Positions 3,647 through 11,626 of a stretch of 20,213 bases of DNA are shown here, piece after piece (the stretch's first letter is position 1; each line of letters begins with the position of its first letter). The stretch spans positions 1-20,213 of the IMG/VR virus record IMGVR_UViG_3300046028_002372. One strand, 5' to 3'. Made by a program: the position numbers and the translations under genes. The notes under the pieces are model-generated. The model was not told the origin of the DNA and ran no database searches. It was given only the letters and a program-made list of their open reading frames with translations. The DNA comes from a virus.

Positions 3647-4639
3647 ATGCTAACAAAAACAAAAACAAGATTAACGGATACAAGAGATTCTTTTAAACCT
3701 TTCAACTATCCATGGGCATATGATGCTTGGTTGAAGCATGAACAAGCGCATTGGTTGCATTCAGAAGTACCAATGGCAGAGGATGTTAAAGACTGGAAGA
3801 AGAAACTTACACTCGAAGAAAAACAATTTCTGACAAACATCTTTCGTTTCTTTACACAGGGTGACATCGATGTGGCTGGTGGTTATGTTAAAAACTATCT
3901 ACCTTACTTTCCTCAACCTGAAGTGAGAATGATGTTGATGGGCTTTGCTGCTCGTGAAGCACTACATATCGCTGCATACTCTCATCTGATTGAAACATTG
4001 GGTTTACCAGAATCAACTTACAATCAATTCTTAGAGTATCAGGAGATGAAGGATAAGCATGACTATGTACTAGACCTTTCTAGTCGTAATGGTACTGTCG
4101 CCAGTACTGCTGAGCATATTGCTGTGTTCTCTGCTTTCACTGAAGGTATGCAGTTGTTCTCTTCATTTATTATGTTGCTTAACTTTCCTCGTCATGGCAT
4201 GATGAAAGGTATGGGTCAAATTGTTACATGGTCTATTGCCGATGAAACAATCCATGCTGAGTCAATGATTAAGTTATTCCGTGAGTATGTTAAAGAAAAT
4301 CCTGAGATCTGGAATGATGATTTAAAAGGTAAGATTTATACAATCGCTGAGAAGATGGTAGAGTTAGAAGATAAGTTTATTGATCTTTGCTATCATGCTG
4401 GAGATATGCGTGAACTATCTGCAGAAGATGTCAAGAAGTATATTCGTTACATTGCAGATCGTCGCTTGATTAGTCTCGGAATGAAGGGTATTTTCAAAGT
4501 TAAAAAGAATCCACTACCATGGGTCGAGGAAATGATCAATGCACCAGTACACGGAAATTTCTTTGAGAATCGTGTCACTGATTATGCAAAGGGTGCTTTG
4601 TCTGGCACATGGGGTGATGTTTGGGGTAAGGCAGCATGA
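3647..4639 (+). CDS. nrdB: Class Ia ribonucleotide reductase, beta subunit
   Basis: The 330-aa radical-generating partner of NrdA. All expected metal ligands and the radical tyrosine can be placed by spacing relative to E. coli NrdB: D73 (D84), E104 and H107 (E115, H118), Y111 (Y122), E166 (E204), E200 and H203 (E238, H241). The distances 31, 34 and ExxHxxxY are exactly conserved. A tyrosine at the radical position argues for a normal tyrosyl-radical subunit rather than a tyrosine-less subclass. Its ATG is one base after the nrdA stop, and its own stop overlaps the desaturase ATG as ATGA. Confidence 0.97.
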   Translation: MLTKTKTRLTDTRDSFKPFNYPWAYDAWLKHEQAHWLHSEVPMAEDVKDWKKKLTLEEKQFLTNIFRFFTQGDIDVAGGYVKNYLPYFPQPEVRMMLMGFAAREALHIAAYSHLIETLGLPESTYNQFLEYQEMKDKHDYVLDLSSRNGTVASTAEHIAVFSAFTEGMQLFSSFIMLLNFPRHGMMKGMGQIVTWSIADETIHAESMIKLFREYVKENPEIWNDDLKGKIYTIAEKMVELEDKFIDLCYHAGDMRELSAEDVKKYIRYIADRRLISLGMKGIFKVKKNPLPWVEEMINAPVHGNFFENRVTDYAKGALSGTWGDVWGKAA

Positions 4640-5340
4640 TAGAGTTAATCTATCTGTTGGTAATGACGCACATTACCATTGTGTGCGTCACTCTATATCT
4701 TCATAGAGGACAGACACACAGAGGAATAACTTTTCATCCAGCGGTCTCACACTTCATGCGTTTCTGGTTGTGGCTCACTACTGGTATGGTAACTAAACAG
4801 TGGGTAGCGATACATCGTAAGCACCATAGATTTATTGACACAGAAGGTGATCCACATAGTCCTAAATTAGTTGGTATTAAGAATATATTGTTTGGTGGTG
4901 TCTATTACTATTACCAAGCAGCAAAAGATGCAAGAATGGTAGTTGAGTATGGAGTAGGCACACCAAACGATTGGATTGAACGAAAAGTTTATACGAAACA
5001 TCATTTCTTGGGTGTGTTTTTATTATTGACGATAAATGTTCTACTGTTTGGTTGGATTGGAATACTACTCTGGATGATTCAAATTATTTGGATTCCATTT
5101 TGGGCTGCAGGAGTTATTAACGGATTAGGACATTGGTGGGGATATCGAAACACAGATACTGCCGATACCTCTAGAAACATCTGTAATTTTGCATTCTGGA
5201 TCGGTGGAGAAGAACTTCACAACAATCATCATGCTGAACCAGCAAATCCAAAATTAAGTAGAAAGTGGTGGGAATTTGATATTGGATGGATGTGGTTTAA
5301 AGTACTACAAAAACTAAAACTAGCAGAGACTAAACAATGA
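4636..5340 (+). CDS. Membrane fatty-acid desaturase (acyl-CoA/acyl-lipid delta-9 type)
   Basis: A 234-aa integral membrane di-iron enzyme that inserts a double bond into acyl chains. The three histidine boxes are present: H23-RGQT-H28 (HxxxxH), H60-RK-H63-H64 (HxxHH) and H195-NN-H198-H199 (HxxHH), plus the GHxxGYRN stretch (165-172) typical of delta-9 desaturases. Hydrophobic segments lie around residues 1-20, 38-52 and 125-160. The start overlaps the nrdB stop (ATGA), so the gene is embedded in the nucleotide operon. Such genes are auxiliary metabolic genes in aquatic phages. The substrate (acyl-CoA or membrane lipid) and the electron donor cannot be read from sequence. The family is confident; the role in the host membrane is inference. 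Confidence 0.93.
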   Translation: MIELIYLLVMTHITIVCVTLYLHRGQTHRGITFHPAVSHFMRFWLWLTTGMVTKQWVAIHRKHHRFIDTEGDPHSPKLVGIKNILFGGVYYYYQAAKDARMVVEYGVGTPNDWIERKVYTKHHFLGVFLLLTINVLLFGWIGILLWMIQIIWIPFWAAGVINGLGHWWGYRNTDTADTSRNICNFAFWIGGEELHNNHHAEPANPKLSRKWWEFDIGWMWFKVLQKLKLAETKQ

Positions 5341-5483
5341 CAACTAAGATTTTTGAATGTACTGAATGTCAGGCGAGAGGTAAGATTATCCTCAAGTCAG
5401 AGGAACGATTGGAAGATATCGTTTACTGTCCTGTATGTTCTGCTGACATCTACGAAGAAGACGATTACGAAGAGGAAGAATAA
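5337..5483 (+). CDS. 48-aa zinc-ribbon protein with acidic tail
   Basis: A very small protein with two CxxC knuckles, CTEC (residues 8-11) and CPVC (31-34), consistent with one zinc ribbon, followed by a tail made almost entirely of D, E and Y. The ATG overlaps the desaturase stop (ATGA), so it is likely cotranslated with the operon. Zinc ribbons of this size often bind nucleic acid or another protein; no specific function can be assigned. The conserved cysteine pairs and coupling make a real gene likely. Confidence 0.75.
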   Translation: MTTKIFECTECQARGKIILKSEERLEDIVYCPVCSADIYEEDDYEEEE

Positions 5484-5486
5484 ATA
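5479..5486 (+). promoter_or_regulatory. Possible T4-late-like promoter box (AATAAATA)
   Basis: AATAAATA differs by one base from the T4 late box TATAAATA and lies about 26 nt upstream of the ATG at 5512. A small inverted repeat AGTAGT-TTAC-ACTACT (5486-5501) overlaps its downstream side. Support comes only from motif and position. Confidence 0.35.
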
Positions 5487-5511
5487 GTAGTTTACACTAC
5501 TGATTATTCTA

Positions 5512-5937
5512 ATGTGGCTTTATAATAAAGAAATTATTGAGGAACTACCTGATGATTGTGTTGGCTTTGTTTATTTAATTACGAACAAAGCCAGTAGTCG
5601 TATGTATGTGGGTAAGAAGTTATCCAAGTTTGCCAAGACTACATACAAGATGGTGAAGCAGAAAAACGGAATCAAGAAACGAAAGAAAATTCGTAGCAAA
5701 ATAGACTCTGACTGGATGAAGTACTATGGTTCGAGTTTAGAACTAAATAAAGATGTAGAGTCTCTCGGAGAGGACAACTTCCTTCGTGAGATTCTTTTCT
5801 TTTGTAAATCCAAAGCTGAATGTTCTTACGTAGAAGCACGAGAACAGTTTGCACGAAAGGTGTTGGAGTCAGACGACTACTACAATGGACAGATATCTGT
5901 TCGAGTCCATGGCTCTCATATTAAAAACAAACTATGA
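5512..5937 (+). CDS. Putative GIY-YIG-like endonuclease
   Basis: A 141-aa basic protein. Residues 18-35 (GFVYLITNKASSRMYVGK) look like a GIY-YIG core, with VYL in place of GIY and MYVG in place of YIG. A lysine/arginine-rich segment (about 40-65) and a DWMKYYGSS motif follow, a pattern I associate with Seg-like or GIY-YIG nucleases of T4-type phages. It could be a homing endonuclease, a recombination or repair nuclease, or a host-DNA nuclease. There is no clear Shine-Dalgarno before the ATG. Its stop overlaps the next ATG (ATGA). The fold is likely; the biological role is unknown. Confidence 0.65.
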   Translation: MWLYNKEIIEELPDDCVGFVYLITNKASSRMYVGKKLSKFAKTTYKMVKQKNGIKKRKKIRSKIDSDWMKYYGSSLELNKDVESLGEDNFLREILFFCKSKAECSYVEAREQFARKVLESDDYYNGQISVRVHGSHIKNKL

Positions 5938-7142
5938 CATACTTACTTTTTGCAGTTGCATTATCGTTATCGGCTCTTGCTGCATATTACGCAGTGATGG
6001 GTCTTATCGCAATATTTGCTGCAGCTGTTGTACCGATTGCTCTTATGGGTTCGATGCTTGAAGCATCAAAACTTGTAGTTGCATCATGGCTCTATCAAAA
6101 CTGGAAAGAAATCCCAGCATTGATGAAGTCATACTTTGTGGGTGCTTTAATAGTGTTAATGATGTTAACATCTATGGGCATTTTCGGATTCTTATCAAAG
6201 GCACATTTGGATCAAGCAATTCCTACGGGAGATGTTCAGTCTAAGTTAGCATTGATTGATGAGAAAATTAAAACAGAAAAGGAAAACATCAATGCAAACC
6301 GTAAAGAACTTACTCAACTCGATGCTCAAGTGGATCAAACCATCGCAAGAACAGACGATACCAAAGGAACAGAGCGAGCCATTAGCGTCCGTAGAGCCCA
6401 GCAAAAAGACAGAGCCAGAATCCTCAACGAAATCGGTAGTGCGCAAACCAAGATCGCCAAATACAACGAAGAGCGTGCCCCAATCGCCAGTGAAGTCCGT
6501 AAAGTCGAAGCAGAAGTTGGACCAATAAAATACATCGCTGCATTGATATATGGTGACGAAAGCGCAACTGATGTCACCATGCTCGAGAAGGCAGTTCGCA
6601 TAGTCACCATACTTATTGTTATTGTATTTGATCCACTGGCAGTTCTTTTATTAATCGCAGCAAACTGGAATCTTAAACATACTGGTGAAAGAAAGTGGAA
6701 TGATTTCTTTGAAAAACCACCTGTTGAAGATTTTCCAGAACGAACAGAGACTAGACTTAATGAAGAAATACAAGTCGTTGAGCCATCCACAACTCCTGTG
6801 TTTGATCATATAAGAGAACATCTTTCAAAAGAACGATTAGAAACTACTAATGTTCCAGAGGAAATTAAAAAAGAAGTAAATGAGTTATTAGAGTCCGAAA
6901 TTCCAGAAATCGAAGTAGATGAACCCACTAAGGATTGGGAACCAGAACTCTATAAACGAGTACAGAAGAAGATCGAGTATGATTCAGCTGGAAGAAGAAT
7001 CACACCAACAACTGAAGAAGAACTAAACCCTCCAACAAAAACACAATCGTTCTTGGATAAAGTCCAGAGTGTGTTTTCATCACCTAGTGTAAAAACTATC
7101 GAAATAGAAGTAGACGAGTTGCAAGACAAAAAACCTAAATAG
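5934..7142 (+). CDS. Large multi-pass membrane protein with coiled coil
   Basis: A 402-aa protein I cannot assign to a function. Hydrophobic segments lie at about 2-24 and 25-45, 67-88 and 221-245. A charged, probably coiled-coil region (about 100-195) sits between the third and fourth segments, so topology probably places the coil on one side of the membrane. The last ~150 residues are hydrophilic and rich in E, P, T and V. Proteins of this layout occur in aquatic T4-like phages without known roles. It starts as ATGA on the nuclease stop and is the first of a run of membrane or exported proteins. It could be a virion, lysis or exclusion protein; that is speculation. Confidence 0.75.
   Translation: MTYLLFAVALSLSALAAYYAVMGLIAIFAAAVVPIALMGSMLEASKLVVASWLYQNWKEIPALMKSYFVGALIVLMMLTSMGIFGFLSKAHLDQAIPTGDVQSKLALIDEKIKTEKENINANRKELTQLDAQVDQTIARTDDTKGTERAISVRRAQQKDRARILNEIGSAQTKIAKYNEERAPIASEVRKVEAEVGPIKYIAALIYGDESATDVTMLEKAVRIVTILIVIVFDPLAVLLLIAANWNLKHTGERKWNDFFEKPPVEDFPERTETRLNEEIQVVEPSTTPVFDHIREHLSKERLETTNVPEEIKKEVNELLESEIPEIEVDEPTKDWEPELYKRVQKKIEYDSAGRRITPTTEEELNPPTKTQSFLDKVQSVFSSPSVKTIEIEVDELQDKKPK
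7135..7141 (+). promoter_or_regulatory. Possible late-like promoter box (CTAAATA)
   Basis: CTAAATA overlaps the end of the preceding gene and predicts a start near 7147, giving a short leader that contains AAAGG (7151-7155) and reaches the ATG at 7164. The same heptamer stands before the gene at 8506. Motif-based only. Confidence 0.4.
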
Positions 7143-7163: not shown

Positions 7164-7409
7164 ATGCACAAAAGAATCGCTTTGGCGGTGCTTTTTGTCA
7201 TGTCAATATTATGTCTAACTCAAATAAGTTCATCTTCACCATTATATGGAGGTGATAACCCTAGTGTAGCAAAAGAACTTCCTTCTAACGAAAGGGAAGT
7301 AAAACTCAATTACGGTATTGCTGAGTGTGTTAGAACTGCTTGGATCGGTGATATTAATAATAGAACATTAATTTGTGTTCAATACCGCTACAAAAAAGAA
7401 GTTAAGTAA
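7164..7409 (+). CDS. Small exported or membrane-anchored protein
   Basis: 81 aa, unrecognised. The N terminus has two basic residues (K3, R4) and a hydrophobic core (about 5-20), then a serine-rich stretch that could contain a signal-peptidase site. The remainder is hydrophilic with two cysteines (in AECVR and LICVQ) that could form a disulfide in the periplasm. AAAGG precedes the ATG by about 8 nt. The stop overlaps the next ATG (TAATG). Confidence 0.65.
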   Translation: MHKRIALAVLFVMSILCLTQISSSSPLYGGDNPSVAKELPSNEREVKLNYGIAECVRTAWIGDINNRTLICVQYRYKKEVK

Positions 7410-8179
7410 TGGATCCGTTAACGCTATTTGCTCTTGCCAATGGCGCAGTATCTGCGATCAAGGCTGGGTGTAAACTTTATAAAGACATCAAGGGTGCAGC
7501 TGGCGATGTTAAAGAAGTTCTCAAAGATCTAGATGAGCAGTTTCATGGTGCATATGCAGCAAAGGGAAAGACACCTCCACCTGCTGCAGTCAAACAACTG
7601 AATGAAGAAAAGGCGAGAGTAAAGGATTTAAACAAACAAGATTCAGGTGACATTTATTTCGAGTTGGGTCAACATCTTGGTGCTTTCTTTGACAATCAAG
7701 CAAAGTGTATAGCAGTATTTGAAGCAGAAGAAAAAAGATCATATGATTTATACACTGGTGATTCTTCTGTAGGTGCTCGTGCCCTACAAAGGGTATTGAT
7801 GAAAAAGAAACTCGAACAAATGGAAGTAGAGTTGCGTGAGGTAATGATATATCAAAGTCCACCAGAACTTGGTGCTCTATGGACAGAAGTGTTACAGCAG
7901 TCTAAGATACTAAATGCAAGACAGGCAATTGCGTTAAAGAAACAAATTGAAGCGCAACACAAACATGATGTTGAACATGCTAATTTTATGAAAAAGGTGT
8001 ATACAGCAACTTGGTGGGTATGTGGATTTATAGGAATATTATTACTAGCTCTTGTCATGATGGTATTCGTTGCTCAAGATAGAATGCAAAAGTATCCTCA
8101 GTTGGGTTATGAGTTATTTCCAAAAACTGAGAAACAAAGAAGACAGGAAGCCATGCCTAAAGAATATATTGGAAGATAA
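7409..8179 (+). CDS. Helical protein with one C-terminal transmembrane segment
   Basis: 256 aa, function unknown. Residues 1-190 look mainly helical and charged, with many K/E heptad-like stretches. One strong transmembrane segment lies at about 199-222, followed by a short basic tail. The coupling TAATG with the preceding gene and the 1-nt gap to the next argue for one transcription unit. The large helical soluble domain before a single anchor could be a membrane-attached structural or lysis-related protein. I resemble-matched it only loosely to hypothetical proteins of aquatic T4-like phages. Confidence 0.72.
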   Translation: MDPLTLFALANGAVSAIKAGCKLYKDIKGAAGDVKEVLKDLDEQFHGAYAAKGKTPPPAAVKQLNEEKARVKDLNKQDSGDIYFELGQHLGAFFDNQAKCIAVFEAEEKRSYDLYTGDSSVGARALQRVLMKKKLEQMEVELREVMIYQSPPELGALWTEVLQQSKILNARQAIALKKQIEAQHKHDVEHANFMKKVYTATWWVCGFIGILLLALVMMVFVAQDRMQKYPQLGYELFPKTEKQRRQEAMPKEYIGR

Positions 8180-9469: not shown

Positions 9470-9895
9470 ATGTATCAATATAAATGTAAGATTATTAAAG
9501 TTCTTGATGGCGACACAGTTGACATAGATTTAGACTTAGGTTTTAAAATTATCCTTGCAAATCAAAGAGTGCGTATGGCTGGAGTTGATACTCCAGAATC
9601 AAGAACTACTATTGCAGAAGAAAAGGTTCGTGGTCTACTCTCTAAAAAGAAATTAGCAGAGAAATTACCTATTGGATCATGGCAGATTATTGAAACGCAA
9701 AAACCTGACAGCAACGATGATAAGTTTGGTAGAATACTTGGAGTCTTTGTTCTTGAAGATGGGACTCGTGTCAATGACTGGTTAATCCAAAACAACTACG
9801 CTGTACCATACAAAGGTGAAAACAAAGACTTGACACAGGCAGAACATCAGGTTAATAAGAAGATTTTAATTGAGCGTGGTGAATTGAAAGCGTAA
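9470..9895 (+). CDS. Thermonuclease (staphylococcal nuclease-like)
   Basis: A 141-aa SNase-fold nuclease. The catalytic pattern is complete: DGDT (13-16), R35, D40-T-P-E43 and K85-F-G-R88, matching S. aureus nuclease D21, R35, D40, E43 and R87. No signal peptide is visible, so it probably acts in the cytoplasm, for example on host DNA or RNA or in phage DNA repair; that is inference. AAAAAGGA (9456-9463) precedes the ATG. Its stop overlaps the next ATG (TAATG), tying it to the lipid genes. Confidence 0.9.
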   Translation: MYQYKCKIIKVLDGDTVDIDLDLGFKIILANQRVRMAGVDTPESRTTIAEEKVRGLLSKKKLAEKLPIGSWQIIETQKPDSNDDKFGRILGVFVLEDGTRVNDWLIQNNYAVPYKGENKDLTQAEHQVNKKILIERGELKA

Positions 9896-10674
9896 TGAAA
9901 TATAAAACGATATTCATAAGTGATGTTCACTTAGGTACTCGTGATTGTCAAGCAAACAAATTAAACAACTTTCTAAAACATAACACCTGCGAGACTCTAT
10001 ATCTCGTGGGTGATATAATTGATGCTTGGAAGATCCAACAAAATAAGTGGAAATGGAAACAGACCCACACTAATGTTGTTCGCAGAATACTTGGTCATGC
10101 CAAGCGTGGAACGAAAGTTGTTTATGTTGCAGGTAATCATGATGAATTCTTAAGACCGATGATCCCCTACGGATTTTCTTTCGGTCTGATTGAAATAAAA
10201 AATCAAACAGAACATATCGGTGTAAATGGTAAACGATACCTAGTCACGCATGGTGACCTATTCGATGGTATCACTCGACTGGCACCATGGCTTGCATTTC
10301 TTGGTGATAAACTATACGATCTAGTTCTTGAGTGGAACTCTCGTTTCAATTGGGTTCGTCACAAACTAGGTTTCGGATACTGGTCACTGTCTAAATACTT
10401 AAAACATAGAGTTAAGAAAGCATCTGACTTTATATTTCAGTTCGAAAAGAATCTTGCAGCATACTGTAAGAAACGTGGCTTTGATGGAGTCATTTGTGGG
10501 CATATTCACCATGCTGAAATCAAAGAGATCGATGGTGTGACCTATATGAATGACGGAGACTGGGTTGAATCCTGCACTGCTTTGGTCGAGAATCATGACG
10601 GTACGTGGGAAATTATTACATGGACTAAAGAAAATGACAAAGAAGATATTGATAATAACAGACAACTTACCTGA
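9895..10674 (+). CDS. plcP: Metallophosphoesterase, PlcP-like phospholipase C (often labelled UDP-diacylglucosamine diphosphatase)
   Basis: 259-aa calcineurin-type phosphoesterase. Metal-binding motifs are D10-V-H12, G39-D40, G80-N-H82-D-E, H119-G and G202-H203-I-H205. The signature stretches SDVHLGTRDCQA, LYLVGDIIDAW and NDGDWVESCTALVE match the subgroup that includes rhizobial PlcP, the phospholipase C that removes phosphate headgroups from phospholipids under phosphate starvation to give diacylglycerol. Automated labels for this subgroup are usually LpxH-like, because the superfamily is shared. The next gene is an Agt-like glycosyltransferase, the usual partner of PlcP in bacteria, which favours the lipid-remodelling role. 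Substrate is inference; fold is certain. Confidence 0.85.
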   Translation: MKYKTIFISDVHLGTRDCQANKLNNFLKHNTCETLYLVGDIIDAWKIQQNKWKWKQTHTNVVRRILGHAKRGTKVVYVAGNHDEFLRPMIPYGFSFGLIEIKNQTEHIGVNGKRYLVTHGDLFDGITRLAPWLAFLGDKLYDLVLEWNSRFNWVRHKLGFGYWSLSKYLKHRVKKASDFIFQFEKNLAAYCKKRGFDGVICGHIHHAEIKEIDGVTYMNDGDWVESCTALVENHDGTWEIITWTKENDKEDIDNNRQLT

Positions 10675-11626
10675 TCAAATTAATGGTGTCGTTACCACTT
10701 ACAAAAATATTGAAGCGTGTGCGATTCGGGATGGTTATACTGTTGATTATATTGATCCCAGCAGGTTCCGCCATTTTGATTGCCCTCGCTACAACGAAGT
10801 CAAGATTACCATTCCATGGCAGGTGGGCAAGAAGATTGAGGAGATCAATCCAGATTATATCCATATCGCCACCGAAGGTACTTTGGGTTTGTGGGCTAGA
10901 GCATATCTTTCACAATGTGGTATTAGCCACAACACTGCTTATCATACTAAGTTTCCTGAAGGACTTAAAACCTTATTTGGCATTCCTGAGTGGATAACAT
11001 GGAGATTTGTTCGTTGGTTTCATAAGCATAGTGGTAAGGTTCTAACAACCACTGAGACAATGGTAAAAGATTTAAAGGCGCATGGGTTCGATGGAGAAGT
11101 TATACCTTGGACTCGTGGTGTTGATAGAGAAATTTTTAATCCATCTCACAGAAACGATAACATCAATGGGAAATATTTACTGTGTGTTTCTCGTGTTAGC
11201 AAAGAAAAGAATTTAGAAGAATTTTTTAAGTTAGACTATCCTGGATACTACAAGATTATGGTCGGTGATGGACCAATGCTTGAAACATACAAGAAACAAT
11301 ATCCTGAGGTAATCTTCACTGGATTCAAGACTGGTGTTGACCTAGCAAAATACTACGCAAACGCTGAAGTGTTTGTATTTCCTAGTCAATGGGAAACATT
11401 TGGCATCGTTATGATTGAAGCGATGGCTTGCGGTACTCCAGTTGCAGCATTCCCATGCGATGGACCACTAGATGTGATTGATCAGGCAGAGACTGGATTC
11501 ATGAACGATAATCTTAGAGATGCAATTGATAGTTGTTTACAGTTGGATAGAGATCGAGTCCTAAAGGGTAGCCAGCGATGGAGTTGGGAAAATGCTTGGA
11601 AAATCTTCAAAAATAACCTAACTTAG
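10634..11626 (+). CDS. agt: GT4 glycosyltransferase, Agt-like (diacylglycerol glycosyltransferase candidate)
   Basis: 330-aa GT-B glycosyltransferase. It has the N-terminal NGVV (17-20), an IHIATEG block (76-82), RGVD (161-164), VSRVSKEKN (185-193) and the C-terminal E254...E262 pair (E-x7-E) before GTPVAAF. These match the family 4 enzymes related to the processive or single-step glycolipid synthases encoded beside plcP in Alphaproteobacteria. The product would be a glycolipid from diacylglycerol and a nucleotide sugar (UDP-glucose, galactose or glucuronate). The start at 10634 overlaps plcP by 41 nt; upstream in-frame codons at 10550 would make an implausibly long overlap. A terminator lies just after the stop. 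Confidence 0.85.
   Translation: MTKKILIITDNLPDQINGVVTTYKNIEACAIRDGYTVDYIDPSRFRHFDCPRYNEVKITIPWQVGKKIEEINPDYIHIATEGTLGLWARAYLSQCGISHNTAYHTKFPEGLKTLFGIPEWITWRFVRWFHKHSGKVLTTTETMVKDLKAHGFDGEVIPWTRGVDREIFNPSHRNDNINGKYLLCVSRVSKEKNLEEFFKLDYPGYYKIMVGDGPMLETYKKQYPEVIFTGFKTGVDLAKYYANAEVFVFPSQWETFGIVMIEAMACGTPVAAFPCDGPLDVIDQAETGFMNDNLRDAIDSCLQLDRDRVLKGSQRWSWENAWKIFKNNLT

Follow-up and report, generated by a model that had tools for sequence, protein, structure and literature searches.

A putative PlcP–Agt-like gene pair for membrane-lipid remodelling in a T4-like phage

The window, that is, the whole stretch of DNA analysed here, is an IMG/VR record of 20,213 bases that covers part of the genome of an uncultured T4-like phage, in its replication region. 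The following features are relevant to this work:

66–1169: T4-type primase (PHROG 47).
4636–5340, + strand: DesA-family fatty-acid desaturase gene, overlapping the end of nrdB (383.6 bits against a cut-off of 400).
9895–10674, + strand: PlcP-type metallophosphoesterase (phospholipase C), 259 aa, assigned from Pfam, profiles, motif, tree and predicted structure.
10135–10140, + strand: codons for N81-H82 in the GNHD block, the second residue being Arg in true LpxH (alignment; PMC3087551, PMC5016852).
10634–10674, + strand: 41-nt overlap of the PlcP and GT4 genes, conserved in related phages and suggesting translational coupling.
10634–11626, + strand: Agt-like GT4 glycosyltransferase, 330 aa, a predicted diacylglycerol glycosyltransferase, assigned from Pfam, residues, tree and structure.
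11393–11395, + strand: codon for Glu254, at the position of the essential Asp256 of SAR11 Agt (alignment; PMC8231724).
11662–11685, + strand: terminator-like hairpin of the rho-independent type with 10 pairs and a T-tail, 3' of the pair.

Pfam, PHROG and profile matches also revealed nrdA, nrdB, a SegE-like endonuclease, a thermonuclease and RNase H, and two more genes were read as thyX and as a dCMP deaminase. The nearest cultured relatives of the primase were methylophage Melnitz and pelagiphage Mosig (44–46%), those of the RNase H were cyanophages (about 40–42%), and the T4 gp23 capsid gene was present on 13 of 23 long related records. Hydrophobic, membrane-like stretches were observed in the products of 5934–7142 (402 aa) and 7409–8179 (256 aa), for which no Pfam or PHROG match was obtained.

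An initial annotation of this DNA had described a phosphoesterase gene and a GT4 gene overlapping by 41 nt and ending at a terminator. The open reading frames, the Pfam matches and a hairpin scan confirmed this arrangement at exactly 9895–11626, with the hairpin downstream; four terminator-like sites were found against 2.2 expected in shuffled sequences, and the one behind the pair has by far the longest stem. The thermonuclease gene lies tightly upstream (TAA/ATG overlap at 9895). The GT4 reading frame contains an earlier ATG at 10550, but the start at 10634 was adopted because 22 of 80 PlcP-anchored loci share this overlap geometry. Among PHROGs, the pair matched only generic, distant families. 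Across phages, purifying selection acts on the two genes (median dN/dS of 0.062 for PlcP and 0.11 for GT4), which indicates that the pair is not a chance occurrence, and their G+C content (0.38–0.40) equals that of the flanking phage genes, so a recent insert of foreign composition can be discarded. Host DNA or an assembly error in a viral contig could be suspected from the existence of bacterial orthologues; however, phage genes of equal composition lie on both sides, the cassette also occurs on long records with gp23, and the phage GT4s constitute a clade of their own, so we assign this explanation a negligible probability. The recurrence of the cassette in hundreds of independent contigs excludes contamination in practice.

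The phosphoesterase scored 46.4 bits against Pfam Metallophos, above the cut-off, and contains the five-block metallophosphoesterase motif with GNHD, not GNRD. The seven metal ligands of PlcP (D10, H12, D40, N81, H119, H203 and H205) are all invariant, and H82 occupies the catalytic position. According to the literature, an Arg in place of the block-3 His is peculiar to LpxH (PMC3087551; PMC5016852). GNHD was present in 285 of 286 phage PlcPs and in 91 of 91 bacterial ones examined, and GNRD in the LpxH of betaproteobacteria having both plcP and lpxH. Two LpxH equivalog models gave only 41.1 bits (cut-off 190.35) and 51.8 bits (cut-off 134) on the window protein. In the maximum-likelihood phylogeny, by which the initial annotation had proposed to separate PlcP from LpxH, the phosphoesterase grouped with PlcP; LpxH was shut out at 100/100, and the phage proteins were nested inside proteobacterial PlcP. 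Their nearest bacteria in this tree were Pelagibacteraceae, Hyphomonadaceae and an Aliarcobacter MAG, with Pelagibacteraceae falling within the smallest starred sets holding phage PlcPs; the bacterial sequences had been selected for their resemblance to the window protein, short MAG contigs of possible phage origin contributed some of them, and the branch of S-SRM01 is very long.

The predicted structure (pLDDT 89.9) shows a phosphoesterase core with a helical insertion. Its best fold matches in the PDB were LpxH structures, at 19–21% identity, a TM of about 0.56 and with a diverged helical insertion; a distant match of this kind is expected of a sister family. A fold search against viral structures returned generic phosphoesterases only. 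These LpxH matches, and the public annotation of the Mosig and S-SRM01 proteins as UDP-2,3-diacylglucosamine hydrolase or diphosphatase, would agree with a true LpxH acting on UDP-2,3-diacylglucosamine in lipid A synthesis. Nevertheless, the low identity of the match, the GNHD motif, the sub-cut-off profile scores and the tree position all argue against it, and on the last three grounds we rejected this very improbable assignment. It also should be considered that P. aeruginosa LpxH2, a non-LpxH paralogue, cannot replace E. coli lpxH (PMC3087551). Few relatives of the window PlcP come from cultured phages (Mosig, 51%; S-SRM01, 38%), the other matching records being unannotated metagenomic ones. 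The PlcP-type genes of cultured phages named UDP-2,3-diacylglucosamine hydrolase/diphosphatase, at 5995–6732 of MT647606 (L082) and 5001–5705 of NC_070963 (L083), are probably mis-named, and the results suggest that part of the 'LpxH' annotations found in phage records is erroneous.

The downstream protein matched Pfam Glycos_transf_1 (85.6 bits) and Glyco_transf_4 (47.9 bits) and has a GT-B/GT4 fold, the closest solved folds being BshA and MshA, with PimA lower on the list. Over its full length it is 39–43% identical to the GT4 that immediately follows plcP in Pelagibacteraceae, Caulobacter and other bacteria, whereas the other GT4s of those genomes gave much weaker scores. The GT4 phylogeny, also proposed in the initial annotation, placed the phage proteins in a clade (98/95) sister to the bacterial plcP-linked Agt, and phages and Agt together stood apart from other paralogues (98/93). 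In the Agt of HTCC7211, 14 residues have been described whose mutation left little or no activity (PMC8231724). Our alignment showed 13 of these to be identical in the window GT4, comprising the donor- and DAG-site residues G16, G82, G85, H104, T162, R163, R190, K195, T257, F258, G259, E264 and W320; of these, G82, T257 and W320 are mostly absent from ordinary GT4 paralogues.

The exception is the catalytic Asp256, in whose place the window protein has Glu254; in HTCC7211 Agt, the D256E change caused the loss of more than 90% of the activity (PMC8231724). Glu occupies this position in 117 of 160 phage GT4s but in only 5 of 22 after dereplication, and Asp in 43 of 160 and 17 of 22, respectively. 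Given that Asp is retained in most of the dereplicated set, the change belongs to the subclade of the window. Glu is the usual GT4 residue at this position (Glu316 in MshA). Since the gene is under purifying selection, we take Glu254 to reflect a possible shift in donor or in rate and not a loss of function; it lowers the likelihood of an Agt of SAR11 specificity, while the predicted membership in the Agt clade is unaffected. Except for this residue, every sequence test that was run supported the PlcP-type and Agt-type identities originally put forward.

A scan with the window PlcP detected 549 places in IMG/VR that encode relatives of it, and the pair is found again on hundreds of phage fragments from aquatic sources. 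In the 80 PlcP-anchored viral loci kept for the linkage counts, near-copies included, a glycosyltransferase was always the next gene downstream on the same strand, 47 being GT4 and 33 an unrelated GT2. When a single PlcP was taken per 80%-identity cluster, a transferase was present in 24 of the 29 with room for it (17 GT4, 7 GT2). Conversely, among loci with room, PlcP was the gene immediately upstream of the transferase in 66 of 74 for GT4 and in 72 of 75 for GT2. Along the PlcP tree, the non-homologous partner was exchanged at least six times, and 98%-identical PlcPs carry different partners (GT4 in L005, GT2 in L007). We take this recurrent refilling of one slot by non-homologous enzymes that share a class as strong evidence that the PlcP product serves as acceptor for the transferase, or at least that both steps form part of one pathway. 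No transferase follows the PlcPs of Mosig, L100, L103 and L119. Eight GT4 loci lack PlcP directly upstream: five near-relatives have an overlapping desaturase there, one has nrdB, and in two PlcP is farther away. Among the phage records searched, no cultured phage was matched by both PlcP and the window GT4.

The GT2 proteins belong to a short family (236 aa; Glycos_transf_2 and Glyco_transf_21 matches; for instance L012:8864–9571) found at about 440 IMG/VR places. No close bacterial homologue was detected among 289 Alphaproteobacteria, and thus no bacterial source was found there. In L252, L253 and L254, where PlcP is absent, the GT2 gene is flanked by nrdB and a DJ-1/PfpI-like gene. In bacteria, a GT4 was the next gene after plcP on the same strand in 58 of the 80 nearest plcP loci, including 7 of 7 from Pelagibacteraceae, and the window has the same order, with the agt-like gene directly downstream on the same strand.

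The possibility that the transferase acts on LPS, capsule, a polyprenyl carrier or modified phage DNA, with PlcP acting on an unrelated phosphodiester and the adjacency having another cause, is compatible with the generic GT4 and GT2 folds, with the departure from characterised Agt at Asp256 and with the lack of close GT2 homologues in the Alphaproteobacteria mentioned above. We consider it unlikely, given the separation of the Agt clade from other paralogues, the Agt-specific residues, the shared gene order in bacteria and the desaturase neighbours. Glucosylation of hydroxymethyl-DNA was also deemed unlikely, as the thymidylate synthase/dCMP hydroxymethylase family was missing in 11 of 12 related records, some of which are fragments.

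The desaturase of the window had no relative among 50,697 phage records. A desaturase was found on 5–6 of 14 long PlcP-bearing viral records, and in 16 loci of relatives the desaturase gene is immediately adjacent to PlcP, GT4 or GT2; from this arrangement, the 4636–5340 gene appears to be functionally associated with the pair. The pstS gene is close to PlcP in few phages only, at a distance of 61–154 nt in L163, L128 and pelagiphage Mosig; it was found nearby in 5 of 7 Pelagibacteraceae plcP loci. Regarding regulation, the window contains one Pho-box match at three mismatches, against 3.1 expected, and upstream of phage PlcPs no Pho boxes were found beyond chance. Control by the phosphate status of the host is therefore not supported, and phage promoters may operate in place of the Pho box. 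Control through a Pho box and PhoB is usual for the bacterial plcP-agt operon, but it is not a strict criterion of membership.

With a probability of roughly 0.78, we interpret the pair as a phage-borne membrane-lipid remodelling pathway, of which we infer the substrates, products, timing and benefit. PlcP would be a cytoplasmic two-metal enzyme (probably Mn) with a helical cap domain that strips the phospho-alcohol head group from host glycerophospholipids to leave diacylglycerol. The GT4, presumably co-produced through the gene overlap, would use a UDP-sugar to glycosylate diacylglycerol with a hexose or a hexuronic acid, yielding a phosphorus-free glycolipid retained in the bilayer, so that the membrane would not be destabilised by free diacylglycerol. 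Host phosphatases would then recover the phosphorus of the released head group. A phospholipase C does not detach the phosphate from the alcohol of the head group; hence, the initial proposal that the pair releases phosphate from host membranes agrees with the predicted removal of head groups but not with a direct release of free phosphate, and any phosphorus gain needs a further phosphatase. These reactions are inferred from the bacterial pathway (PMC4796936, PMC9239053, PMC8231724), in which plcP-agt is required for GADG (PMC9239053) and, in E. coli, SAR11 agt suffices for the formation of MGDG and GADG (PMC4796936).

The likeliest benefit would be extra phosphorus for phage DNA in phosphorus-poor water, favoured by the pstS neighbours and by the role of the bacterial pathway. 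In order of magnitude, the million or more phospholipids of a small cell correspond to the phosphate of several 150-kb phage genomes (300,000 each). The main alternative, which shares the same chemistry and thus overlaps with our interpretation, differing in the benefit only, is that the lipid exchange, together with acyl-chain desaturation, alters the curvature, fluidity or surface of the infected cell for a superinfection block, lysis timing or transporter upkeep, phosphorus being incidental. We regard it as a serious possibility, though somewhat short of even odds. The DesA-type desaturases adjoining PlcP, GT4 or GT2 point to membrane properties, and these neighbours, together with the lack of a Pho box, bring this benefit almost level with phosphorus salvage. 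In addition, a different lipid change, the loss of aminolipids, cuts the adsorption of a Ruegeria phage about 4-fold (PMC9938194). Against it, pstS adjoins PlcP in the three phage loci named, the bacterial plcP-agt pathway is one of phosphorus stress (PMC4796936, PMC9239053), and a polar-lipid exchange taking place in the inner membrane does not necessarily extend to the outer surface.

Extending the remodelling interpretation, we tentatively propose, as an idea that may well prove wrong, that widespread aquatic T4-like phages rebuild the host membrane with a modular kit that channels membrane phosphorus into phage DNA. PlcP would strip head groups, GT4 or the phage-specific GT2 would add different sugars, and the desaturase would retune the chains. 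The outcome could be a phage-specific lipid signature, which might serve superinfection exclusion.

Photosynthesis, nucleotides, phosphate uptake and desaturation are known functions of phage auxiliary genes. To our knowledge, the earlier ones concerned with lipids or phosphate neither remove phospholipid head groups nor make glycolipids. A search of full-text open-access literature found no report of a phage PlcP–Agt pathway, which is a weak negative. The bacterial operon was already known, and the spread of the cassette in phages is new here; neither the association with the desaturase nor the interchangeable GT2 appears to have been described either. If the interpretation is correct, phages would possess a complete two-step pathway from phospholipid to glycolipid, making membrane lipid phosphorus a phage resource, and viral infection would be linked to the non-phosphorus lipids measured in phosphorus-poor waters, which are at present attributed solely to bacteria.

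The phage pair resembles the plcP-agt operon of SAR11 HTCC7211, Erythrobacter, Methylosinus trichosporium OB3b and other Proteobacteria in gene order, families, active-site residues and predicted reactions, with identities to the Pelagibacteraceae pair of about 51–53% for PlcP and 38–41% for GT4. Unlike that operon, it is carried by T4-like phages with a 41-nt overlap, has Glu for Asp256 in the subclade of the window, showed no Pho box, and its transferase slot can hold the unrelated GT2. With LpxH it shares the calcineurin-like phosphoesterase with a helical insertion domain and the best PDB fold match, but it differs in the block-3 His, in an identity of about 20%, in its separate clade and in its scores under the LpxH cut-offs. 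Phage lipid desaturases and phage pstS are likewise phage-borne genes that act on the lipid or phosphorus metabolism of the host, and both adjoin the cassette in relatives. Marine bacteria combine plcP with other glycosyltransferases (types 3 and 5; Sebastian et al., PMC4796936), alternatives reminiscent of the GT4/GT2 exchange, although the phage GT2 is distinguished by its 236 aa and by having no close homologue in the Alphaproteobacteria searched. Some bacterial plcP genes that lack agt adjoin reading frames resembling, by eye, diacylglycerol kinase (DgkA) or polyphosphate kinase (L324:1064–1474; L378:5885–7987; L381:5671–7881; L390:5793–7973), neighbours that fit diacylglycerol and phosphorus metabolism.
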